The notes beneath the pieces are model-generated. The model did not search any database, had not been told where the DNA came from, and saw only the letters and a program-made list of their open reading frames with translations. Source: Terripilifer ovatus (GTDB lineage Bacteria; Pseudomonadota; Alphaproteobacteria; Rhizobiales; Beijerinckiaceae). Taken from it: a DNA stretch of 64,000 bases. The translations under genes were made by a program, and so were the position numbers. Below, in pieces: positions 18,399 to 41,284 of this stretch (positions within the stretch are counted from its first letter, which is position 1; every line of letters starts with the position of its first letter). The DNA is taken from positions 1-64,000 of the forward strand of contig JARHVB010000023.1 of assembly GCA_029222685.1 (NCBI GenBank), written 5' to 3'.

Positions 18399-18565
18399 TG
18401 CGTTTCCCTCCGCGGCCATTTCAGGCCACCGCGATGGAGCGTAAATTTCCACTTTTTCGGCCGGTTGGGAAGCCCTTCCTGCGCGCCGCGGGCTGGTCAA
18501 TCCGGACGGAGTTTGCGACTGTGAGTCAGAAACACAAATCTTGAATGCAAATCCTGGAGAAACGC

Positions 18566-19567: not shown

Positions 19568-19741
19568 AGGCGATACGTGCGGTGCGAAGTCCAACGTCCC
19601 GATGCATGTCGAAACGGCCGCGTGTTGGACAAGGCCTTCAAGCTTCGGTACCTAAGTCTGTGACTACGGGAGCAGTCAGCAAGCCTAGGCATCTGACATG
19701 AGCGCTTAGGGCTTTTTGACGCTGAAACAGGTGAGGATTCA

Positions 19742-20428
19742 ATGCTGCTTGCCCGGATTGATCGGCGTCATCAGCTGAAATGGTCTCTAATGGCCATTTG
19801 CGTCGCCTTAGAAGTCTCTAACCCTGCATTTGCTTTAGACCCCGCATCGATTGCCCGAAGTGGTAATGGCGATGCTGCGACAGCCTGCTCGTCTTGCCAT
19901 GGGGATCACGGCGAAGGCCTTCCAGATAATGGCTTCCCCCGTTTGGCCGGTCTGGATTCGCGGTATCTCCGTACACAGCTTGAGGCCTTTGCGAGTGGAT
20001 CCCGCGCAAACGAAATCATGCATCCGATCGCAAAAGCCTTGTCCTCAGATGAGCGCCAAAGCCTGGCCAGCTATTATTCCGGCTTGATCGCGCCAAAAGC
20101 GCCGCAGCAGGCGGTCGACGACGACAAGCTAATTGCCGATGGCAAGAGTATTGCTCTGGACGGAATCTGGAATAAAGGACTTCCCGGCTGCAGCCAGTGC
20201 CATGCCAAGTTAGGTTTGGGTGTCGGTGCGAGCTTTCCGCGACTGGCCGGACAATCCTCGACGTATATCGGTAATTCACTTGCAGCATGGAAAGATGGGT
20301 CGCGCGGGAACGATCCTCTGAGCCTGATGGCTGGCATCGCCAGCAAGCTCGATCAGTCGCAGATAGACGCAGTCGCTGCCTATTACGGATCATTGCCAGT
20401 TGATCAGCCTGAAGGAAAAACACCATGA
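19742..20428 (+). CDS. tsdB: Diheme cytochrome c4-like protein, probable TsdB partner
   Basis: A 228-residue periplasmic protein with a signal segment ending near PAFALDP. It has two class I haem c domains: Cys49-Ser-Ser-Cys-His53 and Cys150-Ser-Gln-Cys-His154. Met residues in EIMHPIA and LSLMAGI are likely distal ligands, the pattern of cytochrome c4. Its stop overlaps the start of the TsdA-like gene by 4 bp. In several bacteria a c4-like TsdB accepts electrons from TsdA, so I infer that role. The gene pair is visibly richer in A/T than its flanks. Confidence 0.78.
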   Translation: MLLARIDRRHQLKWSLMAICVALEVSNPAFALDPASIARSGNGDAATACSSCHGDHGEGLPDNGFPRLAGLDSRYLRTQLEAFASGSRANEIMHPIAKALSSDERQSLASYYSGLIAPKAPQQAVDDDKLIADGKSIALDGIWNKGLPGCSQCHAKLGLGVGASFPRLAGQSSTYIGNSLAAWKDGSRGNDPLSLMAGIASKLDQSQIDAVAAYYGSLPVDQPEGKTP

Positions 20429-21405
20429 GCGACATCGCTTCTGATCCAAAGACGTGGTTCGCTGGCGTGTTGTTTCTCGCTGCTGCCGGCTTCGCCGGCT
20501 ATTCAATTGGCTCTTATCCCGTCGAGCCTGTCAAAGTCGTAACAGCGCCTCAACCGGCGACCGGCGCGCTCCCGCAAACTCCAAAGGACAGCAAATTTAG
20601 TCCACCGGGCGATGATAAGATTCCAGATAGCGAGTTCGGCAAGTCGGTTCGACTGGGCCAGGCTATTTTTTACGATACACAGAATAACGCGGAGGAATTC
20701 ATCGGCAATTCCCTTCAATGTTCGAATTGCCATCTCGACAAAGGCCGTCAACCGGATTCCGCGCCGCTATGGGCTGCATACCTTGTCTATCCGGCATATC
20801 GTGCAAAAAATGGCCATGTGAATACCTTTCAGGAGCGCCTGCAAGGATGCTTTGAATACAGCATGAACGGAAAGGCGCCGCCACTTGGCGACAAGACCCT
20901 CGTGGCTCTCGAGAGTTACGCATATTTCCTGGCCAAGGGCGCTCCGACAGGTACGGTTCTGCCTGGCCAAGGATACCCGAAACTACCGAGGCCGGACAAA
21001 TTCGATTTCGCTAATGGCAAAGAAGTTTACAGTCAGAAGTGTGCCCTTTGCCATGGCGCTGATGGGGCAGGGCAGCAGTCGCCAGATGGTCAAACCGTGT
21101 TTCCTCCGCTGTGGGGCCCCAAGTCTTACAACTGGGGAGCGGGAATGAGTTCGATCAACAATGCAGCGGGCTTCATCAAGGCAAACATGCCCTTTAGTCA
21201 GGGGAATACCCTAACCGACAAGCAAGCCTGGGACGTTGCTGCGTACATTGATAGCCATGAGCGTCCGCAGGATCCCCGATTTAAGGGATCGCTGGCAGAA
21301 ACCCAAAAAGAACATCACGGGGGTGCCTATGATCTCTACGGGACAACCGTTGGGGGCGTTACCCTGGGAAAAGACTCGGTGCCTTCGGGGCCACTGCCGC
21401 AATGA
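20425..21405 (+). CDS. tsdA: Thiosulfate dehydrogenase (tetrathionate-forming), TsdA family
   Basis: A 326-residue diheme cytochrome c, exported by an N-terminal hydrophobic segment (WFAGVLFLAAAGFAGYSIG). Haem sites are Cys99-Ser-Asn-Cys-His103 and Cys206-Ala-Leu-Cys-His210. Between them NTFQERLQGCFEYSMNG places Cys142 where TsdA uses a cysteine as axial ligand of the active-site haem, a rare mark of this enzyme. TsdA oxidises two thiosulfate to tetrathionate and passes two electrons to a cytochrome. Overlap with the c4-like gene supports a tsdBA unit. One hand-counted line (20641-20700) is 28/60 G+C, against 43/60 at 19081-19140. A related diheme cytochrome with another role is possible. Confidence 0.82.
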   Translation: MSDIASDPKTWFAGVLFLAAAGFAGYSIGSYPVEPVKVVTAPQPATGALPQTPKDSKFSPPGDDKIPDSEFGKSVRLGQAIFYDTQNNAEEFIGNSLQCSNCHLDKGRQPDSAPLWAAYLVYPAYRAKNGHVNTFQERLQGCFEYSMNGKAPPLGDKTLVALESYAYFLAKGAPTGTVLPGQGYPKLPRPDKFDFANGKEVYSQKCALCHGADGAGQQSPDGQTVFPPLWGPKSYNWGAGMSSINNAAGFIKANMPFSQGNTLTDKQAWDVAAYIDSHERPQDPRFKGSLAETQKEHHGGAYDLYGTTVGGVTLGKDSVPSGPLPQ

Positions 21406-21459: not shown

Positions 21460-22269
21460 TTAGCGCCCCGCCGACGTGACGAGCGTGCGCGCGAGGTTCT
21501 GTTCGCTGACGATGTGGCTGGAAATTTCGCGCGCCGTATCGAGCAGGAGGTCCTTGAAGCGGCCGGACATGTCAGCCTGGGTGACGCTGCCGTCGACCGT
21601 CGTCACATTGATCGCGGCGACGATGGTGCCGTTGTTGTCGCGCACGGGCGCTGCGATGGCGCTGACGCCGCGCTCGAAGAACGACTGGCTGACGGCGTAG
21701 CCGCGGGCACGATCCTCCTTCAGCAGCTTCTTCAGGGCCGCCAGCGTCTTCGGCGTCTGCTCGCTGAAGCGCGGCAGGGTTGCTTCAGGGAACAGTTCTT
21801 TGAGTTCGGCGTCGCTCAGTTCACAGATCAGCATGCGGCCGAGGATCGTGCCGTGGACGGGAAAGCGGGTGCCGACCTGGACGCTGCTCGCCATGGTGGA
21901 GCGGGCGGGAAAGCGGGCGAGATAAAGCACGTCGCGGCCGTCGCGAATGGCGAGGTGGGAGGACATGCCGGCTTCGTCGCGCAGGCGGCGCAGGGCGGGC
22001 TGGGCGACCTCGACGAGGTCGAGCGAGGCCAGATAGGCGAAGCCGCGTCCGAGCACGGCCGGACCCAGACGATACTGCCGGTCGCCGTCCTCGCGCTGGA
22101 CATAGCCCATGGTCTCGAGCGTATGCAGGAGGCGAAACACCGTGGCGCGCGACAGGCCGAGTTCCCGCGCGATGTCGGGCGGCGTCAACGCCGGCCGCTC
22201 GCGCGAGAACAGGCCGAGCAGGGTGAGCCCCTGCGTCAGCGCGGGAACGATATAGCGGCCTTCCGGCAT
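21460..22269 (-). CDS. IclR-family transcriptional regulator
   Basis: A 269-residue regulator: winged helix-turn-helix (LTPPDIARELGLSRATVFRLLHTLETMGYVQRE) and then the IclR effector domain (YLARFPARSTMASSVQVGTRFPVHGTILGRMLI; ERGVSAIAAPVRDNNGTIVAAINVTT). The frame is open upstream through the 12-bp tandem repeat, so the start is uncertain. ATG at 22269 directly precedes the conserved YIVPALTQGL block; a GTG at about 22287 is an alternative. It lies 10 bp after the hydrolase gene at the 3' end of the long minus-strand gene set and probably controls it. Confidence 0.87.
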   Translation of the reverse strand: MPEGRYIVPALTQGLTLLGLFSRERPALTPPDIARELGLSRATVFRLLHTLETMGYVQREDGDRQYRLGPAVLGRGFAYLASLDLVEVAQPALRRLRDEAGMSSHLAIRDGRDVLYLARFPARSTMASSVQVGTRFPVHGTILGRMLICELSDAELKELFPEATLPRFSEQTPKTLAALKKLLKEDRARGYAVSQSFFERGVSAIAAPVRDNNGTIVAAINVTTVDGSVTQADMSGRFKDLLLDTAREISSHIVSEQNLARTLVTSAGR

Positions 22270-22279
22270 GGTCTCGACG

Positions 22280-23110
22280 TCACCCACGCTGCTGCCCCAA
22301 GTGCTGCCCCAAGTGCTGCCCCAAGTGCTGCCCCAAGAAATTCTCCACGATCGTGTTGAACGCCTGCGGCGCCTCGACATAGAGGGCGTGGCCGGCATCC
22401 TTGATCGTCGCGACGGGCGTGCCCGGCCGCACCGCTGCGGCGCGCAGGTTGACGGCTTCCGGCGTGATGACGTCGGCCGTGCCGTAGACGATCTGCAAGG
22501 GCAGGCCGACCGGCAGTTCGGCGAGATCGCCGAGCATATCGCCCTGCGAGAGCATGCGCGCCGCCTGGGCATAGCCGGCCGGTTCGACCTCGGCCATGAC
22601 ATCGACGACCTTGCGCACGTCTTCCGCCGTGGCGTTGGGGCCAAGCAGGCGCGGTCCGCGTTTCTCGGCCATGCCGCGCGGCCCGAGGTTCGTCACATCG
22701 TCGACACGGCTCAGCAGCAGGCGCTGGCGCTCTTCGAGCGGCAGTTGCGCATGGCCGATGGCGCAGGAGGCCAGCGTCAGGGTGCGGATGCGTCCGGGCG
22801 CGCCGGCGGCGAAGCGGGCGGCCATCAGGGCGCCGAGCGAATGGCCGACCACATGGGCGCTGTCGATCTTCAAGGCATCGAGGAACTGGGCCAGAACGTC
22901 CGCATAGTCCTGCGGCGTCGGCGCATGGTCCTTCAGATGTGATGAGCCACCGTAACCCGGCGCATTCCAGGCGACAACGCGATGACGGCGGCCAAAATGT
23001 TCGATCTGCGCGGTCCACGACTTTGCCGACGAGCCGATGCCGTGCAGCAGCACCAGCGGGTCGCCGCTGCCTGCCTCGCGCCAGCTCATCTCCCCATGCG
23101 TCAATTGCAT
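22280..23110 (-). CDS. Alpha/beta hydrolase (meta-cleavage-product-hydrolase-like)
   Basis: A 276-residue serine hydrolase: oxyanion segment LLHGIGSSAKSW, nucleophile Ser91 in GHSLGA, acid Asp in VYGTADVITPE and His in DAGHALYVEAP. Size and motifs fit carbon-carbon hydrolases of meta-cleavage pathways and esterases alike. Position in a set with a Rieske oxygenase and an extradiol dioxygenase favours the former. The C-terminus is odd: a 12-bp tandem repeat adds three LGQH units and a fourth, partial LGQ, just before the stop. ATG at 23110 with AAGAGA upstream was preferred over an ATG at 23143 inside the SDR gene. Confidence 0.82.
   Translation of the reverse strand: MQLTHGEMSWREAGSGDPLVLLHGIGSSAKSWTAQIEHFGRRHRVVAWNAPGYGGSSHLKDHAPTPQDYADVLAQFLDALKIDSAHVVGHSLGALMAARFAAGAPGRIRTLTLASCAIGHAQLPLEERQRLLLSRVDDVTNLGPRGMAEKRGPRLLGPNATAEDVRKVVDVMAEVEPAGYAQAARMLSQGDMLGDLAELPVGLPLQIVYGTADVITPEAVNLRAAAVRPGTPVATIKDAGHALYVEAPQAFNTIVENFLGQHLGQHLGQHLGQQRG
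22291..22337. repeat. 12-bp tandem repeat, about 3.9 copies
   Basis: GCTGCCCCAAGT is repeated in perfect tandem at 22291, 22303 and 22315, with a further nearly complete unit from 22327. It lies in the 3' end of the hydrolase gene (encoding LGQH units on the minus strand) and just upstream of the IclR start. Copy-number change would keep the hydrolase frame. Confidence 0.95.
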
Positions 23111-23120
23111 CGACGTCTCT

Positions 23121-23879
23121 TCAGTTGAATACAAAACCGCCATTCACCGGGATCACCTGTCCGGTCACGAATCCCGCACCGGGACCGAGAAGATAGACGA
23201 CGGGGCCCGTCACGTCCTCGGGCATCTGCTGCCGCGGGATGGCGCGGCCGTTGACGTAAAGATCGTGCCGCTCCCGCGGCACATATTCGGTCGATTCGCC
23301 GATGACGATGCCCGGCGCGATGGCGTTGATGGCGATGCCGTCCGCGCCGAGCTCGCGCGCGAGCGACCGTGTCATCGCCATGATGGCGCCCTTGCTGGAA
23401 ATGTAATGCAGCAGGCGAGGGGCGCCCCACAGGGACGTGTCGGAAGCGAGATTGACGATGCGGCCGCCGAGCGTCGATTTTTTCAGCAGGGGGGCGAGCG
23501 CCTTGATCAGCAGCCAGACGCCGCGGACATTGACGTTCATCACCTTGTCCCAGGTCTCGATGTCGATCTCGTCGTAGAGCTTGCCGCCGATGCCGGTGGC
23601 GATCGCGGCATTGTTGACCAGGCCGTCGATGTGGCCGAAGCGGCGGGACAGTTCGGCTGCAAAGGCCTCGATCGATTTCGGATCGCCCTGATCATAGGCG
23701 ACGAAATGCGCTTCGACGCCGCGCTTGCGGATGTCGGCGGCGCAGCCCTCGCCGGTTCCGGCGTCGATATCGGCGACGATGATCATCGCCGCGCCGTCGT
23801 CGGCGCAGGCCTCCGCGAAGGCGCGGCCCAGGCCACGGCCCGCCCCGGTGACGACGATCCTGCGTCCATTCAGATTCAC
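23121..23879 (-). CDS. Short-chain dehydrogenase/reductase
   Basis: A 252-residue classical SDR. The cofactor motif is TGAGRGLG (residues 11-18), NNAAIA follows, the catalytic Ser lies in VNLASDTS, and YISSK supplies Tyr-x-x-x-Lys. The C-terminal PVNGGFVFN is typical. An Asp at the end of the second strand (VADIDAG) suggests NAD rather than NADP. It likely oxidises or reduces a hydroxyl/keto intermediate, or a cis-dihydrodiol made by the Rieske enzyme. Spacing is 40 bp from the permease gene upstream and 10 bp to the hydrolase downstream. Confidence 0.88.
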   Translation of the reverse strand: MNLNGRRIVVTGAGRGLGRAFAEACADDGAAMIIVADIDAGTGEGCAADIRKRGVEAHFVAYDQGDPKSIEAFAAELSRRFGHIDGLVNNAAIATGIGGKLYDEIDIETWDKVMNVNVRGVWLLIKALAPLLKKSTLGGRIVNLASDTSLWGAPRLLHYISSKGAIMAMTRSLARELGADGIAINAIAPGIVIGESTEYVPRERHDLYVNGRAIPRQQMPEDVTGPVVYLLGPGAGFVTGQVIPVNGGFVFN

Positions 23880-23919
23880 GGTCTGCCTCTTTCTCGTTCA
23901 GGCCGCGCCAGGCGCTGTA

Positions 23920-24714
23920 TCAGGATGCGCGGCGGGCGCGGCCGGGTAGCCAGTGGAGGACCCTGTTCTCGATCAGCACGATGGCGCCATAGAGCAGGAT
24001 GCCGATCACCGTCAGCATGATGATGGTGACGAAGACCATCGGCGTATTGCCGGCGCCTTCGCCGAAGGTCAGCAGATAGCCCAGGCCCTGGTTGCCGCCG
24101 ACGAGTTCGCCGACGACGACGCCGATGACGGCAAGCGTTGCCGCGATGCGCAGGCCGGCGAAGAACGGCGGCAGGGAGGCTGGAAATTCGATCTTCCAGA
24201 AGATCTGCAATTTGCTGGCATTGAACGACCTCGCCAGCCGCACGATGTCCGGATCGATGGCGCGCACGGCGCCGAGCACATTGATCATGATGGGGAAGAA
24301 CACGATCAATATGGCGACCAGTATCTTTGGATAGACCGTATAGCCGAACCAGATGACGAACAGCGGTGCGAATGCGACTTTCGGCGCGATCTGCAGCGCG
24401 AGGATATAGGGCGACAGGACGAACTCAGCCGTTGGCGACATGCCGAGCAGGAAGCCGACGAGCATGCCGAGGATCATGCCCAGCACGAAGCCGACCACAA
24501 CCTGCATGGCGGTGATGCCGGTATGAAACATGAGCCTGTCGCGCGTCAGCATGCGCAGGAATTCGTCCCAGACCTTGGAGGCCGGCGGGATGATGAATTG
24601 CGGGATGCCGAAGGCCGCCGGCCCCCATTCCCACACAGCGAGAAAGACGATCGCCAGCAGGAAACTGCCGATCATCATGCGCTGCGTTGCCGGATTGCTC
24701 AGTTCGCTACCCAT
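23920..24714 (-). CDS. ABC transporter permease (SsuC/TauC type)
   Basis: A 264-residue inner-membrane protein with about six hydrophobic segments. The coupling-helix region RLARSFNASKLQIFWKIEFPASLPPFFAGLRIA is the EAA-like loop that contacts the ATPase, and VVVGELVGGNQGLGYLL is the typical nitrate/sulfonate/taurine-family tail. It belongs with the binding protein at 24835 and the ATPase at 25875. The frame extends upstream to 24798, but that extra part is polar and overlaps a hairpin repeat, so ATG 24714 was chosen. Confidence 0.87.
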   Translation of the reverse strand: MGSELSNPATQRMMIGSFLLAIVFLAVWEWGPAAFGIPQFIIPPASKVWDEFLRMLTRDRLMFHTGITAMQVVVGFVLGMILGMLVGFLLGMSPTAEFVLSPYILALQIAPKVAFAPLFVIWFGYTVYPKILVAILIVFFPIMINVLGAVRAIDPDIVRLARSFNASKLQIFWKIEFPASLPPFFAGLRIAATLAVIGVVVGELVGGNQGLGYLLTFGEGAGNTPMVFVTIIMLTVIGILLYGAIVLIENRVLHWLPGRARRAS

Positions 24715-24778
24715 AGTCCCACCACTCACGCCTTCCGATCCGACCGGCCCGGAAGGACGCGTCTCGCATTTGAATAAG

Positions 24779-24823
24779 AGAGCATTTTCTTGACGCAACC
24801 GGTGACCGTTTCGAAAATGCTCC
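24779..24823. repeat. Intergenic inverted repeat, short relative of the 14351 element
   Basis: AGAGCATTTTC and GAAAATGCTC face each other around a short spacer in the 120-bp gap between the ABC binding-protein gene and the permease gene. The arms match those in the elements at 14351, 36446 and 61064. A stem here inside an operon could trim or stabilise the transcript, giving more binding protein than permease; this is inference. Confidence 0.65.
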
Positions 24824-24834
24824 CGCCCCGTCGC

Positions 24835-25839
24835 TTACTGAATGAACTGGTTCGTGTAGAGTTCTTTCACCGGCGTCTTCTTCTCGATGATGCCTTCCTT
24901 CGCGTAGAAGTCCTGCAGGGCGGAGAGACGCGCTTCATCCATCTCGCCGAGCACCTTCTGGCCGGGATAGACATAGGTGTTGTAGCCCTTGAAGATTTCC
25001 GTCAGGTCGGCTTCCTGGCCTTTGAATTCCGGCACCGCCTTGGCGTAGTCGGCGGCGGCCGCCGCCGGGTCATCCATGATGCCCTTCATGCCCTTGAGCG
25101 TGGCGCGGACGATCTTGCGGATCAATTCGGGGTTCTTCTGGATCGTCTCGTCGGAGGCGACGATGGCCTGAGCCATGCTCTTGAACACGGTGTCGGAGGG
25201 GATGATCTCCATGTTCATCTTCGGAACTTCCTTGGCGACGGCGAAGTTCCAGTCGGGCGTCGAGGCCATGGCGTCGGACTGGCCGGCGGCGAAGAGCTTC
25301 CAGATGTTGGTCGGACCGACGGCCTGGGCGTTGACGTCGTTCTTGGTCATGCCCTGGGTGGAGAGCATGCCGAGGAGCGAGAAGAACGTCGTATCCTGAT
25401 AGGCCATGACCGTGATCGTCTTGCCCTTGAGATCCTTGATCGAGCTGATGCCCTTGTCCTTGTTGACGACAAGCTGCATCAGCGAACGGCCGCCGAGTAC
25501 GGCGACAGCCTTCACGGGCACGCCGTTGCTGCGGACGATGATCGGCGTGTCGCCGATGGCGCCGCCGATCACCGCATTGCCGGCGCCGACCTGCTTGGCA
25601 ACATCGACGCCGCCGCGCGCCACCTGGAAGGTGACGTTGAGGCCTTCAGCGGCAAAATAGCCGCGCTGCTTGGCGAGCATCCACGGGCCGAACGCGGGCA
25701 GGGAGGCCGGGGCCGGCAGCAGGTAGAGAATATCCTGCATGGGGGCCTGCGCCTGGGCGGCGGGCAGATTTTGAAACAATGCGGCAGAACCCGCCATGCC
25801 GGCGAGCGTCAGACCTATCAGTTTGTGATGAAATGCCAT
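24835..25839 (-). CDS. ABC transporter substrate-binding protein (NMT1/SsuA-like)
   Basis: A 334-residue periplasmic receptor. The signal peptide ends near AQAQAP. The binding fold shows PAFGPWMLAKQRGYFAAEGLNVTFQ, VGAGNAVIGGAIGDTPIIVRSNG and ISSIKDLKGKTITVMAYQ, as in sulfonate, taurine and aromatic-acid receptors. It is encoded between its ATPase (25875) and permease (23920) genes. Linkage to ring-degradation genes suggests that the aromatic growth substrate, or a precursor, is the ligand. Confidence 0.9.
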   Translation of the reverse strand: MAFHHKLIGLTLAGMAGSAALFQNLPAAQAQAPMQDILYLLPAPASLPAFGPWMLAKQRGYFAAEGLNVTFQVARGGVDVAKQVGAGNAVIGGAIGDTPIIVRSNGVPVKAVAVLGGRSLMQLVVNKDKGISSIKDLKGKTITVMAYQDTTFFSLLGMLSTQGMTKNDVNAQAVGPTNIWKLFAAGQSDAMASTPDWNFAVAKEVPKMNMEIIPSDTVFKSMAQAIVASDETIQKNPELIRKIVRATLKGMKGIMDDPAAAAADYAKAVPEFKGQEADLTEIFKGYNTYVYPGQKVLGEMDEARLSALQDFYAKEGIIEKKTPVKELYTNQFIQ

Positions 25840-25874
25840 GACCCTTCTCCTGTTACTTCTTTTGACGTGATTTT

Positions 25875-26660
25875 CTAATGAACTTCCTCGCCGATGTGCA
25901 GCAGACTCATGAGCTGGGCGATATAGGGCCCCGTCTTCGGGCTCTTGCGCCGCTCCATCGGATTGTCGCGGCCGGGAATATCGACGACGATTTCCTCGAT
26001 GATGGTGCCGGGACGCTGGCTCATGACGAGCACCCGATCGGAGAGCGCGATCGCTTCGACGAGATCGTGTGTCACGAACAGCGCGGTCTTGCCGGTTTCG
26101 GCCAGGGTGCGGCCGAGATCCTGCTGCAGCACCATCTTCGTCTGCGCGTCGAGCGCCGAGAACGGTTCGTCCATCAGCAGCACGGCCGGATCGACGGCGA
26201 GCGTGCGGGCCAATGCAGCACGCTGGCGCATGCCGCCGGACAATTGATGGGGATAATGATCGGCGAAATCAGGCAGGCGGCACTTCTTCAACAGGCCGAG
26301 TGCGGTTGCTTTGCGTTCCGAGGCGGGGACGCCGCGGATTTCCAAGCCGAATTCCACGTTCTGGCGGATCGTGCGCCAGGGCAGCAGAAGATCCTTCTGC
26401 AGCATGAAGGCGACGTGCTCGTTGGGCTTGATCACCTTCTCGCCGTCGACCATCACCTCGCCGTCGCTGGCGGGATCAAGGCCGGAGCCCATGTTGAGCA
26501 GGGTGCTCTTGCCGCAACCCGAGGGGCCGATGAGCGAGACCACCTCGCCGTCAGCGATTTTGAAGTTGAGGTTCTGGACGGCGACGATCGGCGCCTCGCC
26601 CTTGCGCTGGGCCGCGAAGCGCTTGGTGACATTGCGGCATTCGAGGCGGATCGTCTTCAT
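25875..26660 (-). CDS. ABC transporter ATP-binding protein (SsuB/TauB type)
   Basis: A 261-residue ATPase with Walker A GPSGCGKST, Q-loop FMLQKDLLLPW, signature LSGGMRQR, Walker B VLLMDEPFSALD and switch His in FVTHDLVEA. It energises the importer formed with the permease at 23920 and the receptor at 24835. Only 3 bp separate it from the extradiol dioxygenase gene upstream, which ties uptake and ring cleavage into one transcript. Confidence 0.93.
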   Translation of the reverse strand: MKTIRLECRNVTKRFAAQRKGEAPIVAVQNLNFKIADGEVVSLIGPSGCGKSTLLNMGSGLDPASDGEVMVDGEKVIKPNEHVAFMLQKDLLLPWRTIRQNVEFGLEIRGVPASERKATALGLLKKCRLPDFADHYPHQLSGGMRQRAALARTLAVDPAVLLMDEPFSALDAQTKMVLQQDLGRTLAETGKTALFVTHDLVEAIALSDRVLVMSQRPGTIIEEIVVDIPGRDNPMERRKSPKTGPYIAQLMSLLHIGEEVH

Positions 26661-26663
26661 CGC

Positions 26664-27632
26664 TCAGGACCGCTTTTCGGTGATGAACTTGCCGTCCGCG
26701 GCAGGCGTCGGCGCGGTCGATTTCTGGCGGCGCGTCTTGCCGTCGATGCCGCCGGCGATCGCCCATTCGGCGAAGACATCGGGGCCAGGCTCGAAATCGC
26801 GCGGCGTCCAGGCTTCGGTCACGACGTCTTCGTCGGCGTAGTATTCCGCCAGCGCGCCGGCCGGATTCTTGAAGTACCAGAAGATCGCCGAGGAAACGGG
26901 GTGCTTGCCCGGTCCGAGCTGCGTTTCCCAGCCGCAGCGCGACATATGCATGCCGCCTCCGAAAACCTCGTGGATGTCGCGCACTGCAAAGGCGACGTGG
27001 TTGAGGCCCGGCTTGCTGTCGGGCGTCTGCAGCAGGAACATGTCGTGATGGCCGCCGCGCGGCGCGGTGCGCAGGAAATGACCACGTCCGGGGTAGCGAT
27101 CGGAGATGCAGAAGCCGATGTCCTCGTAGAACTTCGTCGTCTCTTCGAGCTTGTTGGTGAAGAAGACGACATGGCCGACTTCAATGGGTGTGGCGCGCTC
27201 GTAGATGGGGCTCGCGGCATTGACTCGCGAGGCCTTGTCCCAGGTATTGGTCTGCGCGCCATGGATATCGATCGGACGCTTGCGGCTGACTCTCACGCCG
27301 ACGGCGAGGCCGTTCGGATCGGTGCAGAGCAAGGTGCCGTCGTCTTCGTGGAAGCCTTTGGCGTTGCGCATCTTCTCGCGGCTTGCGACGATGTCGGCTT
27401 CGCTCTCCGCGCTCCAGATGACTTCGCGCACCGTCGGACCCGCTTCGATCGCTGCGGGCAAGGCCGCATCGTCGCTGCGGCGCACGAAGACTTCGCAACC
27501 GTTCAGGGTTTCGAAATCGAGCGCGGTGCCGGTTTCCTTCACCAGCTTCAGTCCCCAGTCGAGGAAGAATTTGCGGCTCAGCGCGATGTCCTCGACGCCG
27601 AATGTGACGCGGTCGATGCCCGATATGCTCAC
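26664..27632 (-). CDS. Type I extradiol dioxygenase-like VOC protein
   Basis: A 322-residue two-module VOC protein. The C-terminal module carries the iron-ligand set of extradiol dioxygenases: His154 (EVGHVVFFT), His212 (LNHVAFAV) and Glu263 (LAEYYADE). The first module is degenerate, as usual for the class. It would cleave a catechol-like ring made by the neighbouring Rieske oxygenase. The C-terminal 30 residues (KTRRQKSTAPTPAADGKF...) are a polar extension not expected for the fold. It shows only distant similarity to the dioxygenase at 17454. Confidence 0.84.
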   Translation of the reverse strand: MSISGIDRVTFGVEDIALSRKFFLDWGLKLVKETGTALDFETLNGCEVFVRRSDDAALPAAIEAGPTVREVIWSAESEADIVASREKMRNAKGFHEDDGTLLCTDPNGLAVGVRVSRKRPIDIHGAQTNTWDKASRVNAASPIYERATPIEVGHVVFFTNKLEETTKFYEDIGFCISDRYPGRGHFLRTAPRGGHHDMFLLQTPDSKPGLNHVAFAVRDIHEVFGGGMHMSRCGWETQLGPGKHPVSSAIFWYFKNPAGALAEYYADEDVVTEAWTPRDFEPGPDVFAEWAIAGGIDGKTRRQKSTAPTPAADGKFITEKRS

Positions 27633-27659
27633 GGTACTCTCCGGATAAAACGCTGACGT

Positions 27660-28100
27660 CTAGGCGCCCGCATTATGCAAATTGACGGCCAGATTGGCGA
27701 AGGCGTCGATCTCGACCAGGAGATCTGGAAAGGCGAAGCCGTTCACGCCGACGAAAGTCGAGGCAGGATAGAGCGGCTGAAAGGCCGCGGCCCGCATCGC
27801 ATTGATGTCGTCCTTGAACCGCATGTCTGTGACGTAGATGACGAGCTTGTAGACATTGCAGAGATCGCCGCCGGCCGCGTTCAATTGCGCGGCGATGCGA
27901 TTGAAAATCGCCTTCGCCTGCAAGCCGGCGTTGGCGCCCCCGATGGGTGCTCCATCGGTGCCGCGCGCCGTTACGCCCGACATGACCACTTCCTGGCCGA
28001 TGACCATGCAATTCGTCCACGACGCGCCGGGCGGCTCGATGAGGCCCGGCGTCGTGACGCGGCGAACGCAGACAGGCGCGCTGGCGGCGATATCAGGCAA
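27660..28100 (-). CDS. RidA (YjgF/YER057c/UK114) family protein
   Basis: A 146-residue protein of the Rid family: IEPPGASWTNCMVIGQEVVMSGVTAR, QAKAIFNRIAAQLNAAGGDLCNVYKLVIYVTDM and FAFPDLLVEIDAFA. RidA hydrolyses reactive enamines/imines to ketones and ammonia; the catalytic Arg of archetypal RidA lies in a C-terminal ARxxLP-type segment that is replaced here by FAFPDLLVEID, so it belongs to a different subgroup that may act on other imines or on aminomuconate-like compounds. Its start overlaps the end of the Rieske gene by 8 bp. Pairing with a Rieske oxygenase hints at a nitrogen-containing aromatic substrate. Confidence 0.83.
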   Translation of the reverse strand: MPDIAASAPVCVRRVTTPGLIEPPGASWTNCMVIGQEVVMSGVTARGTDGAPIGGANAGLQAKAIFNRIAAQLNAAGGDLCNVYKLVIYVTDMRFKDDINAMRAAAFQPLYPASTFVGVNGFAFPDLLVEIDAFANLAVNLHNAGA

Positions 28101-29127
28101 CTTGACGGCCCGCTTCGGCCAGAGCCGTGAGCTGCTGCACGGCCTGGTTCTTCATGACGCGGCGCAGGCGCACGAGGCCCATGTCATGGGAATAGAGGTT
28201 CTCGTGCTTGTTGGCGTCCGGGTCGCACTGCTCGAGCATGGTGCGGTCCTGTTCCAGCACGTGCCAGTGGCGGGCTTCGAGGCGGTTCTTGTAGAGGAAG
28301 CGCCAGGTGTCGCGATGCCAGCCGTCGACCTTGCGGCAGCGCCAGTGAATGACGACGGCCTTGTTTTCCGAAATCGGCGTGTACATGCCGATGATGTGGA
28401 AGTTGCCGCCGGGGCCGCCGCTCTTGGGGTATGGAATCTCGAGGCGCAGCCACAGGGCGTTGGTGTTGGCGTATTCGGTCCAGTCGAAATTGACGTTGCG
28501 CTGGCCCTCCTTCTCGAAGACGAATCCAGTCTGCGTGTCGCGAATGCGGAAATTCGCCTGGGTGTCGCCGAACGACATCGAATGCGACTGCTTGTGCAGG
28601 AAGGTGCCGTGCATCGGGTCCATCACATTGTCGATGACATAGCGATAGTCGCCGTTCCATTCCGCATAGCACAGGAACGAGCTGAATTCCGGCGAGGACA
28701 GCTCTTCCGGCAGGATCAGTTCCGGCGCTTCGGGATGCAGTTCATCGCCGACATAGGCGAAAATAACTCCATTGCGTTCCTGCAAGGGAAAGGTCTTCGT
28801 CGCCTTCGAGCCTTCCAGCTTGCTGCCCGGTGCACCGGGCACGACGACCGCGACGCCGTTCTTGTCGACCTGAACGCCATGATAGCCGCAGGCGATGCGG
28901 TCGTTCATCAGGATGCCGCATGACAACGGCACGCCGCGGTGGGGGCAGCGATCTTCGAGCGCGTAGGGCGTGCCGTCAATGCCACGCCAGAAGACCATTC
29001 GGTAGCCGCAGCGGCGCAGCGATACCGGCTTTTCGGTGACGAAATGGGACGGGCACATCGCATACCACTGGTTGCGGGCGCCAATGCTCATGAGTTTTTC
29101 GACGGCATGTTCTGAAACGGCGGTCAT
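28093..29127 (-). CDS. Rieske non-heme iron oxygenase, oxygenase component (VanA-like)
   Basis: A 344-residue oxygenase. Rieske ligands are Cys61-Pro-His63 and Cys80-Gly-Tyr-His83; the mononuclear site is NVMDPMHGTFLH with Asp170, His173 and His178. Length and the opening RNQWYAMCPSHFVTEKPVSLRRCG resemble vanillate O-demethylase and related monooxygenases, which use a separate flavin/ferredoxin reductase not found in the window. The frame extends upstream to 29235, but ATG 29127 gives the standard N-terminus. It lies in a tight set with two small genes upstream and RidA downstream. Confidence 0.9.
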   Translation of the reverse strand: MTAVSEHAVEKLMSIGARNQWYAMCPSHFVTEKPVSLRRCGYRMVFWRGIDGTPYALEDRCPHRGVPLSCGILMNDRIACGYHGVQVDKNGVAVVVPGAPGSKLEGSKATKTFPLQERNGVIFAYVGDELHPEAPELILPEELSSPEFSSFLCYAEWNGDYRYVIDNVMDPMHGTFLHKQSHSMSFGDTQANFRIRDTQTGFVFEKEGQRNVNFDWTEYANTNALWLRLEIPYPKSGGPGGNFHIIGMYTPISENKAVVIHWRCRKVDGWHRDTWRFLYKNRLEARHWHVLEQDRTMLEQCDPDANKHENLYSHDMGLVRLRRVMKNQAVQQLTALAEAGRQVA

Positions 29128-29159
29128 CGTTACGCTCCTTGCTTCAGGTGCTAATGGCT

Positions 29160-29384
29160 TCACGCCCCGAGGCGCTTCATTTCCTGTTGAAACAATTCCG
29201 GCGTCCACGGTTTGCCGCCGGGAGAGGGGACGCAATCCTCATTCAGCAATGCGCAGATGCCCGGCAGATCATGAATGCCTGCAGCGTAGGCCTTTTCGAT
29301 GCCATCGCCGAGAAGATTTTCATAATCGGTCGGTTCGCGATCTCTCGTCTGATGGGCGTTGAGATATTGTTGCTGCTCCATCAC
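29160..29384 (-). CDS. Small protein with recombinase-like helix-turn-helix segment
   Basis: A 74-residue protein. The C-terminal half (GICALLNEDCVPSPGGKPWTPELFQQEMKRLG) resembles the recombinase domain of large serine recombinases, where a similar ALNxxGVPTPxGKxW stretch occurs, but no catalytic recombinase domain is present. I recall similar stand-alone proteins beside Rieske oxygenase genes. It overlaps the 118-residue gene upstream by 4 bp and lies 32 bp from the Rieske gene. It may be a small partner or regulator of the oxygenase; the function is unknown. Confidence 0.7.
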   Translation of the reverse strand: MMEQQQYLNAHQTRDREPTDYENLLGDGIEKAYAAGIHDLPGICALLNEDCVPSPGGKPWTPELFQQEMKRLGA

Positions 29385-29737
29385 TTGCCTCCTTTGCGCA
29401 CGCGCTCACGGATCATTTCACGCACCGGCACGAAGTCATAGGCCGGATAGCATTCGGTCTTGAAAACGCCCCAGGCGGAGCGTTCGAGTTCGACGTTGAC
29501 GGCGGCGAGTTTGGATGGCGGCAGGCGCAAGGTGACGATCTGGCCAAAACCCATCGCCACATACCACGAGACGACATCCACGCCTTCCGGGGGAAACCGT
29601 TCCCACCAGTCGGCTTCCTTCAATTTGGTCTGCACGGCGTCGAGATTGTTGGACTGGTCGTGGCGCAGAAAAACGGTCATCAAAATCTTGTCCGCACTCG
29701 CTGTGCCCGCCTCGATTTTCGGTTCCGCTTGTGCCAT
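29381..29737 (-). CDS. Conserved small protein of unknown function beside a Rieske oxygenase
   Basis: A 118-residue soluble protein with no signal peptide. It reads as one alpha/beta domain: ILMTVFLRHDQSNNLDAVQTKLKEADWWERFPPEGVDVVSWYVAMGFGQIVTLRLPP, which resembles a ferredoxin-like barrel such as dimeric muconolactone-isomerase-like domains. No catalytic residues can be assigned. As first gene of the minus-strand set and coupled to the next by a 4-bp overlap, it probably works with the Rieske system. It diverges from the cupin gene at 29981. Confidence 0.72.
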   Translation of the reverse strand: MAQAEPKIEAGTASADKILMTVFLRHDQSNNLDAVQTKLKEADWWERFPPEGVDVVSWYVAMGFGQIVTLRLPPSKLAAVNVELERSAWGVFKTECYPAYDFVPVREMIRERVRKGGK

Positions 29738-29980
29738 GTGAGACCTGCGCCAGGTTGTTTTATAAGTAAAACGTCATTTCATATTTGCAACACGCTAAAA
29801 CGTCGTGTAGAAATTGTCAAAATAAAATTCTGTGCCTGCGCCGGTGTTGCGGTTCGGCGAAGCACAGCCTGTGCCAGTGCTTTTTTGAAGTTGCGGCTTT
29901 TTGGAAAGCATCGGCGTTGGCGCAGCGGCTTTTTTTGAACGGCGGAGATATTCCGCCAATGGCAGTGAGGAGATGGCGTC
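29738..29980. promoter_or_regulatory. Divergent promoter region of the central catabolic locus
   Basis: About 240 bases separate the 118-residue gene (minus) and the cupin gene (plus). The segment is clearly A/T-rich compared with its flanks and contains an ACGTCATTT ... AAACGTCGT pair of related words near 29769-29812. It must hold promoters for both arms. No exact operator can be defined by eye. Confidence 0.5.
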
Positions 29981-30529
29981 ATGAACCAGCATGTCAAAGA
30001 GGAAATTCTTCCGGAAGACGTGAAGATCCCGGAAGGCAAAACGCTCGCTCAATGGCTCGAGTCGCGCACGGCGCGCTTCAGCACCCGCGAGCTCGACTGG
30101 AATGCCCTCAAGTTCCAGGCCGATTTCGATCCGAAATACAAGCGCGCGCAGATGCGCTATGTCGGCACCGGCGCCACCGGGGTCAATGCTGACAGCAACA
30201 CGGTGCCGGCCGAGAATTTCACCTTCTCGACGATGGTTCTGCCCGCCGGCTGCGAGGGACCTTTGCATCTTCATACCGATGCGGAAGAAGTGTTCTTCAT
30301 CATGCGCGGCGAGCGCATCCGCATCATGATCGAGCACAACGGCCAGCATGAAGATCTCATCCTGGGCAACCGCGATCTCATTTCGGTTCCGCCGGGCGTC
30401 TATCGCGGTCTCGTCAACGAGGGACGCGAGGAAGCTTTGATGTGCGTGATGATCGGCAGCACCAAGCCGGAAACGCCGAGCTATCCGGCCGATCATCCGC
30501 TGTCCAAGGTCAAGCGCAACAAAGCCTGA
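29981..30529 (+). CDS. Cupin-domain protein
   Basis: A 182-residue protein with a single central cupin barrel. Motif 1 is GPLHLHTDAEEVFFIMRGE (two His and a Glu in the metal positions) and motif 2 is ISVPPGVYRGLVNEG, in which the usual final His is absent. Metal binding is plausible but incomplete. A GAGGAGA box precedes the ATG. As first gene of the plus-strand arm it could act on a ring-cleavage product or sense a ligand. Confidence 0.8.
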   Translation: MNQHVKEEILPEDVKIPEGKTLAQWLESRTARFSTRELDWNALKFQADFDPKYKRAQMRYVGTGATGVNADSNTVPAENFTFSTMVLPAGCEGPLHLHTDAEEVFFIMRGERIRIMIEHNGQHEDLILGNRDLISVPPGVYRGLVNEGREEALMCVMIGSTKPETPSYPADHPLSKVKRNKA

Positions 30530-30557
30530 TCGGTTCTGATCGTAACGGGGAAGCGAG

Positions 30558-31349
30558 ATGGATCTCGGACTTTCAGGACGCACCGTCGTCATCACCGGCG
30601 GTACGTCCGGCATCGGCCTGGCTGCCGCCGGCATCTTTCTCGATGAAGGCGCGCGCGTTGCGATCTGTGGGCGCAACGCCGAGCGGCTGGACAAGGTCGC
30701 CGCCGACCTGTGCGACCGCTTCGGTGCCGCCAATGTTCTGGCGCGCCGCTGCGACGTGACGAAGCAGGACGATGTCGCGGCCTTCGCCCGCGACGTCGAA
30801 GCCTGGAGCGGCCGCGTCGACATTCTGATCAACAATGCGGGGCAGGGGCAGATGACCACCTTTGCCTCGACCACCGACGAGCAGTGGCGCCACGAGCTCG
30901 ACTTGAAATTCTTCAGCCAGATCTATCCGGTGCGGGCGTTCCAGGCGCTTTTGGAAAAGAGCGACGCGGCGGCGATCCTCGCCGTCAATTCGCTGCTTGC
31001 CTATCAGCCGGAGCCTTACATGGTGGCCACGTCGGCGGCGCGCGCCGGCGTGCAGAGCCTGGTCAAATCATTGGCAACCGAGTTTGCACCGCGTATCCGC
31101 GTCAATTCGGTCGTGCTCGGCCTCATCGATTCCGGCCAGTGGGAGCGCCGCTTCCAGGCGCGCGAGAATAAGGCGCAGTCGCGCGACGAATGGATCGAGG
31201 TGCTGGCGAAGTCCAAGCACATTCCGTTCGGCCGTCTCGGTAATCCGGCGGAAGTGGCGCGTGCCATCGTGTTCCTGGCCTCGCCCGCCGCCAGTTATGT
31301 CACCGGCTCGGCGCTTGAAATTTCCGGCGGGATCTCCCGCTTCATCTGA
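30558..31349 (+). CDS. SDR-family protein with atypical active site
   Basis: A 263-residue SDR with normal cofactor motifs (TGGTSGIG at 13-20, NNAGQGQ) and a normal C-terminal SGGISRFI. The Ser of the active site is present in VNSLLAY. Where Tyr-x-x-x-Lys is expected, the protein reads MVATSAARAGVQSL, so Thr and Arg appear to occupy the Tyr and Lys positions. It may use another acid-base residue, or bind NAD without classic dehydrogenation. It lies 28 bp after the cupin gene and 15 bp before the ThDP gene. Confidence 0.85.
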   Translation: MDLGLSGRTVVITGGTSGIGLAAAGIFLDEGARVAICGRNAERLDKVAADLCDRFGAANVLARRCDVTKQDDVAAFARDVEAWSGRVDILINNAGQGQMTTFASTTDEQWRHELDLKFFSQIYPVRAFQALLEKSDAAAILAVNSLLAYQPEPYMVATSAARAGVQSLVKSLATEFAPRIRVNSVVLGLIDSGQWERRFQARENKAQSRDEWIEVLAKSKHIPFGRLGNPAEVARAIVFLASPAASYVTGSALEISGGISRFI

Positions 31350-31364
31350 CTTTGAGAGGATGCG

Positions 31365-33053
31365 ATGAACATCGCCACCGCTGCCCCATCCGTCGCCACC
31401 CGTGAAGAGCCGGTCGGCGATCTCATCGCCCGCACCCTGGCGGAAGCCGGCGTCAAATATGCCTTCGGGGTGATTTCTATCCACAATATGCCGATCCTCG
31501 ATGCCATTCTGCGGCAGGGGCTCATCACCTTCATTCCGGCGCGCGGCGAAGCCGGTGCCATGAACATGGCGGATGCCTACGCGCGCGTGTCGAAATCGCT
31601 CGGCGTCGTCATCACCAGCACGGGCACGGCCGCAGGCAATGCGGCGGGCTCGCAGGTCGAGGCGCTGACAGCCGGTTCGCCGGTGCTGCACATCACCACG
31701 CAGATCGATACGCCGTGGATGGACCGCGACCGCGCCGCCATCCATGACGTGCCGCGCCAGCCCGACATGCTGAAAGCGGTCTCGAAGGCCTACTTCCGGC
31801 TGTGGGACGCCAATGCCACCGTACCGATGGTGCAAGCGGCGATGACGGCTGCACTGTCGGCGCCGAGCGGGCCGGTCAGCCTGGAAATTCCTGTCGACGT
31901 GCAGCGCATGCCGGCGGTCATTCCCTTCCGCATCGGCCTGCCGCCAGTGGCGCGTCTTGCGCCCGATCCGCAGCAGCTCGATACCCTGGCGGACCTGGTG
32001 AAGAAGGCGAAGCGACCGATGCTTTATCTTGGCGGCGGGTCGCGCAACGCCACGGCGGCAGCGACCGCATTGGTCGAGCGCGGCCTCTGCGCCGTCACCA
32101 GCACCAACGGCCGCGCCTGCGTGGCGGAAGATCATCCGCGCAATCTCGGTGCCTTCAACATGACGCCGCAGGCGCAGGCGGTCTACGACCGCTGCGACCT
32201 GATGATCGTCGTCGGCTCGCGCCTGCGCGGCAACGAGACGCGCAACAATGCGCTGCGCCTCGGCAAGCCGCTCGTGCAGATCGATGCCGAGGCGAGCCAG
32301 GGCGGCCGCAATTATCCGGTCGATCTGTTCGTGCACGGAGATGCGGCGCTTGCCCTCGAAGGCCTGCTGGAGCGGCTGCCGCAGTCGCTTGGCACCGACG
32401 AGGCGTTCGCCGCGGAGGTTCTTGCGGCCAGGGTCAAGGGCGAAGAGGGTATTTCGCGCGGTCTCGGTGTCTATTCCGTTCTGGCCGACGCGCTGCGCGA
32501 CCGGGTGCACAAGGGGGCTCTGCCGTTCGTGCGGGATGTGACGATCGGCAATTCGACCTTCGGCAACCGCTATGTTCGCCTCGCCGCGCCGCATCTGGGC
32601 GTGCATGCGCTCGGCGGCGGCATCGGCCAGGGCATCGCCATGGCGGTCGGCGCCACATTGGCCGCGCCCGGCAAGAAGACCGTGGCGCTCCTCGGCGACG
32701 GCGGCGCCATGGTCAACATCGGCGAGCTGGCGACCATCGTCGACAATGCCTGCGACACGGTCTTCGTGATGATGAACGACAAGGCCTACGGGGTCATCGC
32801 CAACATCCAGGATGCGCAATATGCCAACCGGCAGGCCTATTGCCGGCTGCATACGCCTGACTTCGGCCTGCTGGCCGAGAGCATGGGCCTGCCGCATGTG
32901 CGCATTACCAACATCGATGCGTTCGAGGCCGCCTTCGACAAGGCGCTGGCCGAAGCGGGCCCCGTTCTCATCGAGGTCGATATGACGGTGATCGGTCCCT
33001 ATGCGGAGGCCTTCGGCGGACCGCCGGCGGGTGCGGCCGGAGGCGCGCGTTGA
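31365..33053 (+). CDS. Thiamine diphosphate-dependent enzyme (acetolactate synthase/benzoylformate decarboxylase superfamily)
   Basis: A 562-residue three-domain ThDP enzyme. The N-terminal Pyr domain has the cofactor-activating Glu62 in RGEAGAMNMADAYAR; a central domain follows; the C-terminal PP domain has LLGDGGAMVNIGEL and MMNDKAYGVI (Gly-Asp-Gly ... Asn), which bind the diphosphate and Mg2+. The exact reaction is open: 2-oxoacid decarboxylation or carboligation are the family options. The position after ring-cleavage genes suits decarboxylation of an oxo-acid product. It overlaps the next gene by 4 bp. Confidence 0.88.
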   Translation: MNIATAAPSVATREEPVGDLIARTLAEAGVKYAFGVISIHNMPILDAILRQGLITFIPARGEAGAMNMADAYARVSKSLGVVITSTGTAAGNAAGSQVEALTAGSPVLHITTQIDTPWMDRDRAAIHDVPRQPDMLKAVSKAYFRLWDANATVPMVQAAMTAALSAPSGPVSLEIPVDVQRMPAVIPFRIGLPPVARLAPDPQQLDTLADLVKKAKRPMLYLGGGSRNATAAATALVERGLCAVTSTNGRACVAEDHPRNLGAFNMTPQAQAVYDRCDLMIVVGSRLRGNETRNNALRLGKPLVQIDAEASQGGRNYPVDLFVHGDAALALEGLLERLPQSLGTDEAFAAEVLAARVKGEEGISRGLGVYSVLADALRDRVHKGALPFVRDVTIGNSTFGNRYVRLAAPHLGVHALGGGIGQGIAMAVGATLAAPGKKTVALLGDGGAMVNIGELATIVDNACDTVFVMMNDKAYGVIANIQDAQYANRQAYCRLHTPDFGLLAESMGLPHVRITNIDAFEAAFDKALAEAGPVLIEVDMTVIGPYAEAFGGPPAGAAGGAR

Positions 33054-33877
33054 GACTTGCTATTATCGGCTATGGCACGATTGCCAGACAGGCGTTGAAC
33101 GTGCTGGCCCGCGACCTTGCGCGGCCGCTCGATGCCATCGTTTGTCTGGCGCGGGCGGACGGAGCCGGGCGCGCGCAGGACCTGCTCGAGTCGCTCGGTG
33201 CCGGGCTTGCCGGCGAGCGTCTTGTCGTCGGGACCGTGAGCGAGCTTCTCAGCCATCGCCCGGATTTCGTTGCCGAGGCTGCCGGACACAAAGCTCTGCA
33301 GGACTATGGCGCGCCGATTCTGGCCGCGGGCAAGCATCTGCTGGTGACATCGGCCGGTGCCCTGGCCGATGACGACTTGCGCGCAGGACTTGATGCCGCT
33401 GCGCAGCAGTCCGGCGCCAGATATCGCATTTGCCCTGGTGCAGTCGGCGGCCTCGATATTCTCGCGGCGGCGAAACTCTCCGGTCTTCAGGATGTGCTCT
33501 ACACATCGCGCAAGCCGCCGAAAGCCTGGGCCGGCACGCCGGCCGAACGGCTCGTCGATCTCGCCGCGCTGAAGGCCGCGCATGTGTTCTACGAGGGCAG
33601 TGCGGGCGCCGCGGCGCGCGATTATCCCCAGAACGCCAATGTGGCTGCGACGATCGCGCTTCTCGGCGCCGGCTTTGCAGCGACGCGCGTGCGCCTGATT
33701 GCCGATCCTGCGGTTTCGCGCAATGTTCACGAACTGTCGGTGCGATCGTCCTGCGCTGATTTCGACATCCGCATCTCGGGCCAGCCGTCGCCGGAAAATC
33801 CCAAGACGTCGCTGACGACCGGATATGCACTGGCCAACCAGATTCTGGATTTATGGCCCCATTCGCGCGGCGCGTAG
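33050..33877 (+). CDS. nadX: Aspartate dehydrogenase-like protein
   Basis: A 275-residue NAD(P)-dependent amino-acid dehydrogenase. The Rossmann start is RLAIIGYGTIARQAL. Family landmarks are AEAAGHKALQDYG, TSAGALADDDLR, GAVGGLDILAAAKLSG, SRKPPKAWAGTPAE, YPQNANVAATIALLGAG, and RNVHELSV with the catalytic His. NadX oxidises L-aspartate to iminoaspartate, in NAD synthesis or amino-acid catabolism. The start is a TTG overlapping the ThDP stop (TTGA), so translation is coupled. In this locus it may instead act on an amine made from the aromatic substrate, with RidA hydrolysing the imine. Confidence 0.84.
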   Translation: MRLAIIGYGTIARQALNVLARDLARPLDAIVCLARADGAGRAQDLLESLGAGLAGERLVVGTVSELLSHRPDFVAEAAGHKALQDYGAPILAAGKHLLVTSAGALADDDLRAGLDAAAQQSGARYRICPGAVGGLDILAAAKLSGLQDVLYTSRKPPKAWAGTPAERLVDLAALKAAHVFYEGSAGAAARDYPQNANVAATIALLGAGFAATRVRLIADPAVSRNVHELSVRSSCADFDIRISGQPSPENPKTSLTTGYALANQILDLWPHSRGA

Positions 33878-38658: not shown

Positions 38659-38694
38659 AATCCAAAACTACGGCTGAGTTTGGAGCAGGTTCAT

Positions 38695-41279: not shown

Positions 41280-41284
41280 GACAT

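Follow-up and report, generated by a model that had tools for sequence, protein, structure and literature searches.

In the aerobic kynurenate ('quinoline') branch by which pseudomonads degrade tryptophan (EC 1.14.99.2, 1.3.1.18 and 1.13.11.10), the substrate is dihydroxylated, the diol dehydrogenated and the ring opened by extradiol cleavage, after which the side chain is reduced, the 2-oxoacid decarboxylated and the aldehyde oxidised; the ring that remains after side-chain oxidation is a 4,6-dihydroxypicolinate. To our knowledge, these three enzymes have long been orphans, described decades ago without genes. Here we compare this and other described systems with a divergent locus at 21460-33877 of the window, by which we mean the whole 64,000-nucleotide stretch analysed (Terripilifer ovatus, assembly GCA_029222685.1, contig JARHVB010000023.1, positions 1 to 64,000), in a genome of 7.2 Mb (G000). 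The locus comprises 15 genes, 11 on the - strand and four diverging on the + strand, including a Rieske oxygenase, a VOC-family ring-cleavage dioxygenase and a complete ATP-binding cassette (ABC) importer. Its function as a pathway for bicyclic N-heteroaromatic compounds is likely. We tentatively favour, with confidence somewhat short of one half, the view that the locus is a catabolic unit under regulation, which degrades a bicyclic N-heteroaromatic acid taken up by the importer; this acid is most likely kynurenate (4-hydroxyquinoline-2-carboxylate) or a close analogue, for instance xanthurenate. Kynurenate itself as the substrate is put forward just as tentatively.

The order of reactions in the kynurenate branch appears to match the enzyme families of the locus step by step, and both 7,8-dihydroxykynurenate and 5-(2'-carboxyethyl)-4,6-dihydroxypicolinate are named in the accessible parts of current metabolite lists. 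The difference is that no genes are assigned to that pathway in the literature searched, among the matches listed. Likewise, neither this gene set nor genes for kynurenate ring cleavage were described among the matches listed from that literature, to which subscription journals mostly did not belong, and the accessible portions of PMC3053476 and PMC4938989 hold nothing on kynurenate ring cleavage. A sequence-only reading of the window had not recognised the gene combination from any described pathway, and these searches agree with it.

The iad auxin locus of Variovorax is alike, in the accessible parts of its description, in having a Rieske oxygenase, ABC solute-binding proteins and a tryptophan-derived N-heteroaromatic. 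It differs in its IadDE oxygenase, an alpha3beta3 complex with a PDR-type reductase, and in yielding anthranilate, and the same parts name no core of VOC, thiamin diphosphate (ThDP) and aspartate dehydrogenase (AspDH) enzymes. Identity with the iad locus was ruled out on the Rieske type, as the alpha/beta pair IadDE has no counterpart here. The lum lumichrome/riboflavin operon of Nocardioides simplex shares thiamin-dependent decarboxylation, a Rieske dioxygenase, an extradiol enzyme and a cupin, and differs, as far as its accessible description goes, in P450 and xanthine-oxidase steps, an alpha/beta Rieske enzyme, substrate and order; no aspartate dehydrogenase was seen in that description, and we rejected identity with this operon, which is a parallel only. 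A Rieske oxygenase acting on a quinolone, 2-oxoquinoline 8-monooxygenase (PDB 1z01), is a weak sequence relative of the window enzyme (64 bits, query residues 25-211), and dicamba demethylase scored higher (77.7 bits). Finally, the lower-pathway hydratase and aldolase of the classical meta-cleavage operon are not among the 15 genes, which are the following.

21460..22269, - strand: IclR-family regulator, 269 aa; PcaR/PobR-like, below cut-off; start at ATG 22269 from sequence
22280..23143, - strand: alpha/beta hydrolase, by domain family; PcaD-like
23121..23879, - strand: short-chain dehydrogenase/reductase 1 (SDR1), proposed cis-dihydrodiol dehydrogenase
23920..24798, - strand: ABC importer permease; start uncertain, first ATG 24714
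24835..25839, - strand: NMT1/THI5-type solute-binding protein, by domain family
25875..26660, - strand: ABC importer ATPase, by domain family
26664..27632, - strand: VOC extradiol-type ring-cleavage dioxygenase; presumed iron ligands H154, H212 and E263
27660..28100, - strand: Rid-family protein; Ser at what we take to be the RidA catalytic Arg position
28093..29127, - strand: VanA-type Rieske oxygenase alpha subunit, 344 aa; proposed ring dihydroxylase
29160..29384, - strand: HTH_62 protein, 74 aa, PF20552; probable dedicated Rieske oxygenase partner
29381..29737, - strand: p118, 118 aa, no Pfam family; in the ferredoxin gene's place in this branch
29738..29980, no strand: divergent intergenic region, 243 bases; presumed control region between the arms
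29981..30529, + strand: cupin, single domain; H96-x-H98, E102/E103, Arg142
30558..31349, + strand: SDR2, above the cut-off of NCBIfam PRK07062; proposed side-chain reductase
31365..33053, + strand: ThDP enzyme, above the cut-off of NCBIfam PRK07064; proposed 2-oxoacid decarboxylase
33050..33877, + strand: AspDH-like protein, proposed imine reductase

All 15 genes that the sequence-only reading had listed are thus present, with the families it gave. Spacing ranged from -23 to +40 bases in the - arm, taking the IclR start at ATG 22269 and the Rieske start at ATG 29127 (the value of that reading; the open reading frame (ORF) itself starts at 29235), and from -4 to +28 bases among the four genes of the + arm. 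Its figure of at most about 120 bp for gaps and overlaps holds too, a gap of 120 bases arising only if 24714, the first ATG, is the permease start.

The combination proved not to be unique to this genome. Largely gene-for-gene equivalents were found in Klebsiella pneumoniae, Acinetobacter baumannii, Burkholderia, Caballeronia, Novosphingobium and other Alphaproteobacteria, and Streptomyces carries a divergent equivalent of lower similarity; the gene block is common to soil bacteria and some clinical ones. Since gene content and divergence recur in relatives, the arrangement of the 15 genes is not due to chance. The view of the locus as a single conserved catabolic unit, which takes up a compound, hydroxylates its ring and opens it, is supported. 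Identity to the K. pneumoniae proteins was 49% for the Rieske oxygenase, 56% for SDR1 (against the SDR adjoining the Rieske gene), 48% for the VOC enzyme, 68% for the cupin, 41% for the hydrolase, 50% for SDR2, 51% over 184 aa for the AspDH-like protein and 42% for the ThDP enzyme; no match to the K. pneumoniae cluster was found by megablast against 5,426 E. coli genomes. The Caballeronia strains SBC2 and NK8 both have the order ferredoxin, HTH_62, Rieske, SDR, cupin, hydrolase, IclR, SDR and ThDP, followed by AspDH, aldehyde dehydrogenase (ALDH), VOC, flavin adenine dinucleotide (FAD) reductase and a major facilitator superfamily transporter. Burkholderia arboris (L017), judged by homology, likewise has ferredoxin, FAD reductase and ALDH genes in a single run with the rest of the set, and ALDH is found at the locus in most named relatives. 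Near named relatives are the metagenome-assembled genome 'Rhizobiales bacterium 62-17' (L028) and Methylocella sp. CPCC 101449 (VOC 83%). Within the genus, the Rieske gene (67-88% identity) occurs in 19 of 50 other genomes, and the stretches compared, from part of these 19, mostly retain both divergent arms; L041 (G048) holds only part of the set, its cupin sitting on another contig. The cupin was a sharp marker of the cluster, occurring in 17 of 387 class genomes (own included; E 1e-30 or better), always at 59% identity or more. The presence matrix used for these comparisons misses genes that overlap their neighbours, such as HTH_62 and the hydrolase in the window row, and gene absences were counted only where a second comparison of stretches agreed.

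The Rieske protein carries the cluster motifs CPHRG and CGYHG and the iron motif DPMHGTFLH, and no ring-hydroxylating beta-subunit family occurs among the 15 genes, leaving a single VanA-type alpha subunit with HTH_62. Because all three HTH_62 genes of the window genome adjoin a Rieske gene, we infer that HTH_62 is an oxygenase partner rather than a DNA-binding protein. The p118 model has a ferredoxin-like alpha+beta fold (mean predicted local distance difference test score (pLDDT) 79); a structure search with it gave only generic matches at low template-modelling (TM) scores and no convincing PDB relative, and neither HTH_62 nor p118 matched PDB sequences at E up to 1. Single relatives of p118 are named 'muconolactone isomerase domain' or 'GYD domain' in source records. 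With one Cys only, p118 is not itself a ferredoxin. It is present in 12 distinct loci (L013, L028, L029, L030, L038, L039, L042, L045, L046, L050, L053 and the window; L029 is counted but decayed), and ferredoxin in ten clusters (two in NK8 pNK84, L015, L016, L017, L062, L063, L066, L067 and L075); across these, no locus had both. The gene directly upstream of HTH_62 was p118 in 10/12 of the former and ferredoxin in 9/10 of the latter. A PDR/VanB reductase was found at L013, L018, L030, L031 and L032. SDR1 is missing from the Rieske-less loci of G007 and Vibrio and fragmentary in that of G001, so that none of the three has an intact copy, which fits SDR1 as the dehydrogenase of the Rieske diol.

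Assignment of the ring-cleavage enzyme to the VOC extradiol type rests on PF00903, the His-His-Glu motifs H154/H212/E263 and its homoprotocatechuate dioxygenase relatives. A second VOC gene, 37% identical, lies elsewhere in the genome (G000:C85:83642-84484, L052), next to genes for a flavin monooxygenase and an S15-type hydrolase. In the cupin, H96-x-H98 and E102/E103 are invariant, as is Arg142 in 34/34 aligned sequences, at a position where we presume the second cupin motif usually has His; its model gives the fold only, 76/182 residues lying below pLDDT 70. The VOC enzyme, two SDRs, the ThDP enzyme and, in most named records, ALDH suggest that a fused catechol is cut to leave a 2-oxo-3-enoic side chain, which is then reduced, decarboxylated and oxidised. 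The term 'lower pathway' in the sequence-only reading says too little, for the usual meta hydratase and aldolase are missing and a ThDP decarboxylase (with ALDH in most named relatives) takes their place.

That reading had also called the last gene of the + arm an aspartate dehydrogenase and had taken it, together with RidA, as a hint of nitrogen in the substrate. The protein has the Asp_DH_C domain (PF01958, 99.7 bits) and passed two NCBIfam subfamily cut-offs (PRK13303.1-3, 242.6 vs 177 bits; PRK13303.1-4, 187.9 vs 184), and it fell below every NCBIfam equivalog cut-off compared (e.g. 213.5 vs 226 and 169.3 vs 206.55), for which reason we call it AspDH-like. The RidA argument was abandoned: all six Rid proteins of this locus type have Ser (Pro-x-Ser-Thr) at the position that we take, as Pro-x-Arg, to hold the catalytic Arg of RidA imine deaminases, and the Rid protein is therefore unfit as proof of an imine substrate. 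A nitrogen-bearing substrate nonetheless remains likely, given the AspDH-like enzyme and an association with tryptophan 2,3-dioxygenase.

This association was seen in the 387 class genomes, which three gene searches, matching in class, number, completeness and genome handles, are assumed to have covered as one set. Tryptophan 2,3-dioxygenase occurred in 11/17 cupin-positive genomes (own included) compared to 60/370 cupin-negative genomes (one-sided Fisher test, P = 1.9e-5), in 11/16 when the own genome was left out (P = 8e-6), and by genus in 7/11 compared to 45/253 (P = 0.0014). Homogentisate dioxygenase, a control for general aromatic catabolism, gave 7/17 compared to 54/370 (P = 0.009) and by genus 3/11 compared to 42/253 (P = 0.28). 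The cupin-positive genomes without tryptophan dioxygenase were the own genome, G106, G426, G277, G352 and G416, the last three belonging to the genus of L076. Wherever positions are known, the tryptophan dioxygenase gene is not beside the cluster, and the co-occurrence test was chosen after the hypothesis.

We read the reactions, control and substrate of the following scheme from the gene families, motifs, conservation and co-occurrence described above. The ABC importer would take the acid in, the Rieske oxygenase with HTH_62 (and p118 or ferredoxin) would form the 7,8-cis-dihydrodiol, and SDR1 would convert this to 7,8-dihydroxykynurenate. The VOC enzyme would cut ring bond 8-8a to give a picolinate with a 3-carboxy-3-oxopropenyl chain, whose double bond SDR2 would reduce; decarboxylation of the 2-oxo acid by the ThDP enzyme and oxidation by an ALDH, unlinked in the window genome, would lead to 5-(2-carboxyethyl)-4,6-dihydroxypicolinate. 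The cupin and hydrolase may then open the pyridine ring, with N1-C2(COOH)-C3-C4 leaving as an iminosuccinate-like acid, to be reduced by the AspDH-like enzyme or hydrolysed, and a glutarate skeleton as the remainder. IclR would control both arms. Opening of the dihydroxypicolinate and release of the iminosuccinate-like acid are our own chemical proposal and have no source; it is this fragment that would give the AspDH-like enzyme a role at the locus. According to the accessible part of a review citing Horibata 1961 (PMC11354673), pseudomonads convert kynurenic acid to glutamate, alanine and organic acids, products that an N-bearing C3-C4 fragment and a C5 acid would allow.

We regard the locus as encoding a pathway of the meta-cleavage type with an unusual lower half; possibly it supplies the genes for a pathway hitherto described from its biochemistry alone. 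More doubtful than kynurenate as substrate is the full claim that the genes missing from the classical aerobic kynurenate pathway are those of this locus, with an alpha-only Rieske oxygenase needing HTH_62, an exchangeable p118 or ferredoxin, an end in an imino-dicarboxylate for a relative of AspDH, and a distribution over soil bacteria and human opportunists. If true, human opportunists could consume a host immune metabolite, three enzymes of tryptophan catabolism would have their genes, kynurenate use by soil, plant and clinical bacteria would be predictable from sequence, and a function would be suggested for the HTH_62 and p118 families. Should the substrate differ, this would still be a catabolic operon of wide conservation, with no published function in our searches, and testable in culturable soil strains.

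Several observations weigh against the kynurenate reading. The window locus has no ferredoxin or reductase gene, and no ALDH. A relative of the ALDH (E 1e-120 or better) occurred in only three of 19 genomes (own, G022 and G024; the count leaves out G011, G016 and G030); that of the own genome (55%) is unlinked, its neighbours being an amino-acid kinase/PUA gene and a disulphide oxidoreductase, and those of G022 and G024 adjoin a flavin monooxygenase. The link between SDR1 and the Rieske oxygenase is not a strict rule, as SDR1 was not found in the Rieske-bearing loci L032, L042, L050, L060, L076, L077 and L079, nor in the second NK8 cluster (L014), where a Rieske gene is present. A close VOC gene (65-84%) was found in only 5/19 same-genus Rieske genomes (own not counted) and was lacking from 14/19, among which G011, G016 and G028 are incomplete (below 90%). 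Extradiol genes 27-34% identical to that of the window were found in 13 of these 14, none at that cut-off in G029, and the VOC-less genomes (G011, G016 and G030 left out) have extradiol genes 30-40% identical to that of Vibrio. In a search of 30 genus genomes, the cupin occurred at 78% or more in 19 of the 21 genomes that have a close Rieske or VOC gene, G022 and G024 having none above 34%, and as one 77-residue piece at 71% (G020) among the nine with neither. In another alphaproteobacterial genus, L076, L077 and L079 lack SDR1, VOC and AspDH, and a haem-oxygenase/TENA-like protein follows the ThDP enzyme. Five of the 11 cupin genomes positive for tryptophan dioxygenase belong to one genus, the single control gene is itself enriched by genome count, and the statistics ignore genome size and phylogeny. 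Tryptophan dioxygenase was found in 0/37 window-genus genomes tested (own included), so that the substrate would need to be imported. Finally, growth of A. baumannii Ab04 on kynurenine (not kynurenate) requires a separate kynU cluster, according to the accessible part of PMC9162365.

Quinaldate, 8-hydroxyquinoline acids, or another quinoline or fused azine could be the bicyclic N-heteroaromatic on which the same chemistry acts, with kynurenate at most a side substrate; we consider this unlikely though the strongest of the alternatives. A window genus with an importer and without tryptophan dioxygenase is consistent with it, as are a flavin monooxygenase at some loci and genes for molybdenum (Mo) hydroxylases, a family that often hydroxylates N-heterocycles, in 3/58 scanned stretches (L014, L069 and L071). 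However, the association with tryptophan dioxygenase would be unexpected for a xenobiotic quinoline, and the nearest PDB relative of the NK8 Mo-hydroxylase is 4-hydroxybenzoyl-CoA reductase, quinoline 2-oxidoreductase ranking fourth. The comparisons did not discriminate the NK8 enzyme as a quinaldate oxidoreductase, and this assignment was dropped.

The losses among relatives imply either replacement by other enzymes of ring cleavage or a core that is used for more than one substrate. The latter is less probable again: cupin, hydrolase, SDR2, ThDP and AspDH-like enzymes would form a shared lower pathway, fed by an exchangeable entry of Rieske oxygenase with SDR1, flavin monooxygenase, VOC enzyme or others. 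VOC, cupin, SDR1, Rieske and ALDH genes are indeed gained and lost among close relatives. G001 and G007 have no close Rieske gene; their loci retain VOC, hydrolase, IclR, cupin, SDR2, ThDP and AspDH. Both also have a flavin monooxygenase resembling 3-hydroxybenzoate/salicylate hydroxylases in type (below cut-offs), the gene running off the contig in G007; fragments of p118, the ABC ATPase and SDR1 are left in G001 (L029, L055) where the Rieske module has gone. In Vibrio nigripulchritudo, the plasmid-borne locus is also Rieske-less. There (L059, 15219-21382) the flavin gene matches in three pieces with no annotated coding sequence and the ThDP enzyme is split into two ORFs, so that this locus may be decayed. 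A P. aeruginosa cluster around PA3504-PA3517 presumably has the same core, with lyases replacing oxygenases. Against a shared lower pathway, the genes of Caballeronia SBC2 and NK8, K. pneumoniae and A. baumannii form one run of constant enzyme content. The flavin monooxygenase was also rejected as a plain replacement of the Rieske oxygenase, since the two occur together at L013, L032 and L044 and within the genomes of G022 and G024, and the entry-swap argument carries little of the weight of the kynurenate reading.

An ordinary meta-cleavage operon for a monocyclic aromatic (aminobenzoate or catechol-type) is improbable: Rieske, VOC and PcaD-like hydrolase families are known from such operons and p118 might, from one relative's name, be an isomerase, but the 15 genes include no 2-hydroxypentadienoate hydratase or aldolase family and the ThDP and AspDH-like enzymes would have no evident role.

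Elsewhere in the window, a second cluster of heteroaromatic type lies at 37415-46353, with a divergent NMT1 protein, a Rieske oxygenase, an M24 peptidase family protein, a class II aldolase, ABC genes and another NMT1 protein. A probable degradation island occupies 1636-11796 and comprises a LigXa-type Rieske oxygenase, two TctC receptors, an epimerase, M24 and S15 peptidase-family proteins and a LysR regulator. Between this island and the locus, at 18545-21405, a phosphoenolpyruvate mutase/isocitrate-lyase-like gene precedes a pair of cytochrome c genes, of which one encodes a SoxA/TsdA-type domain.

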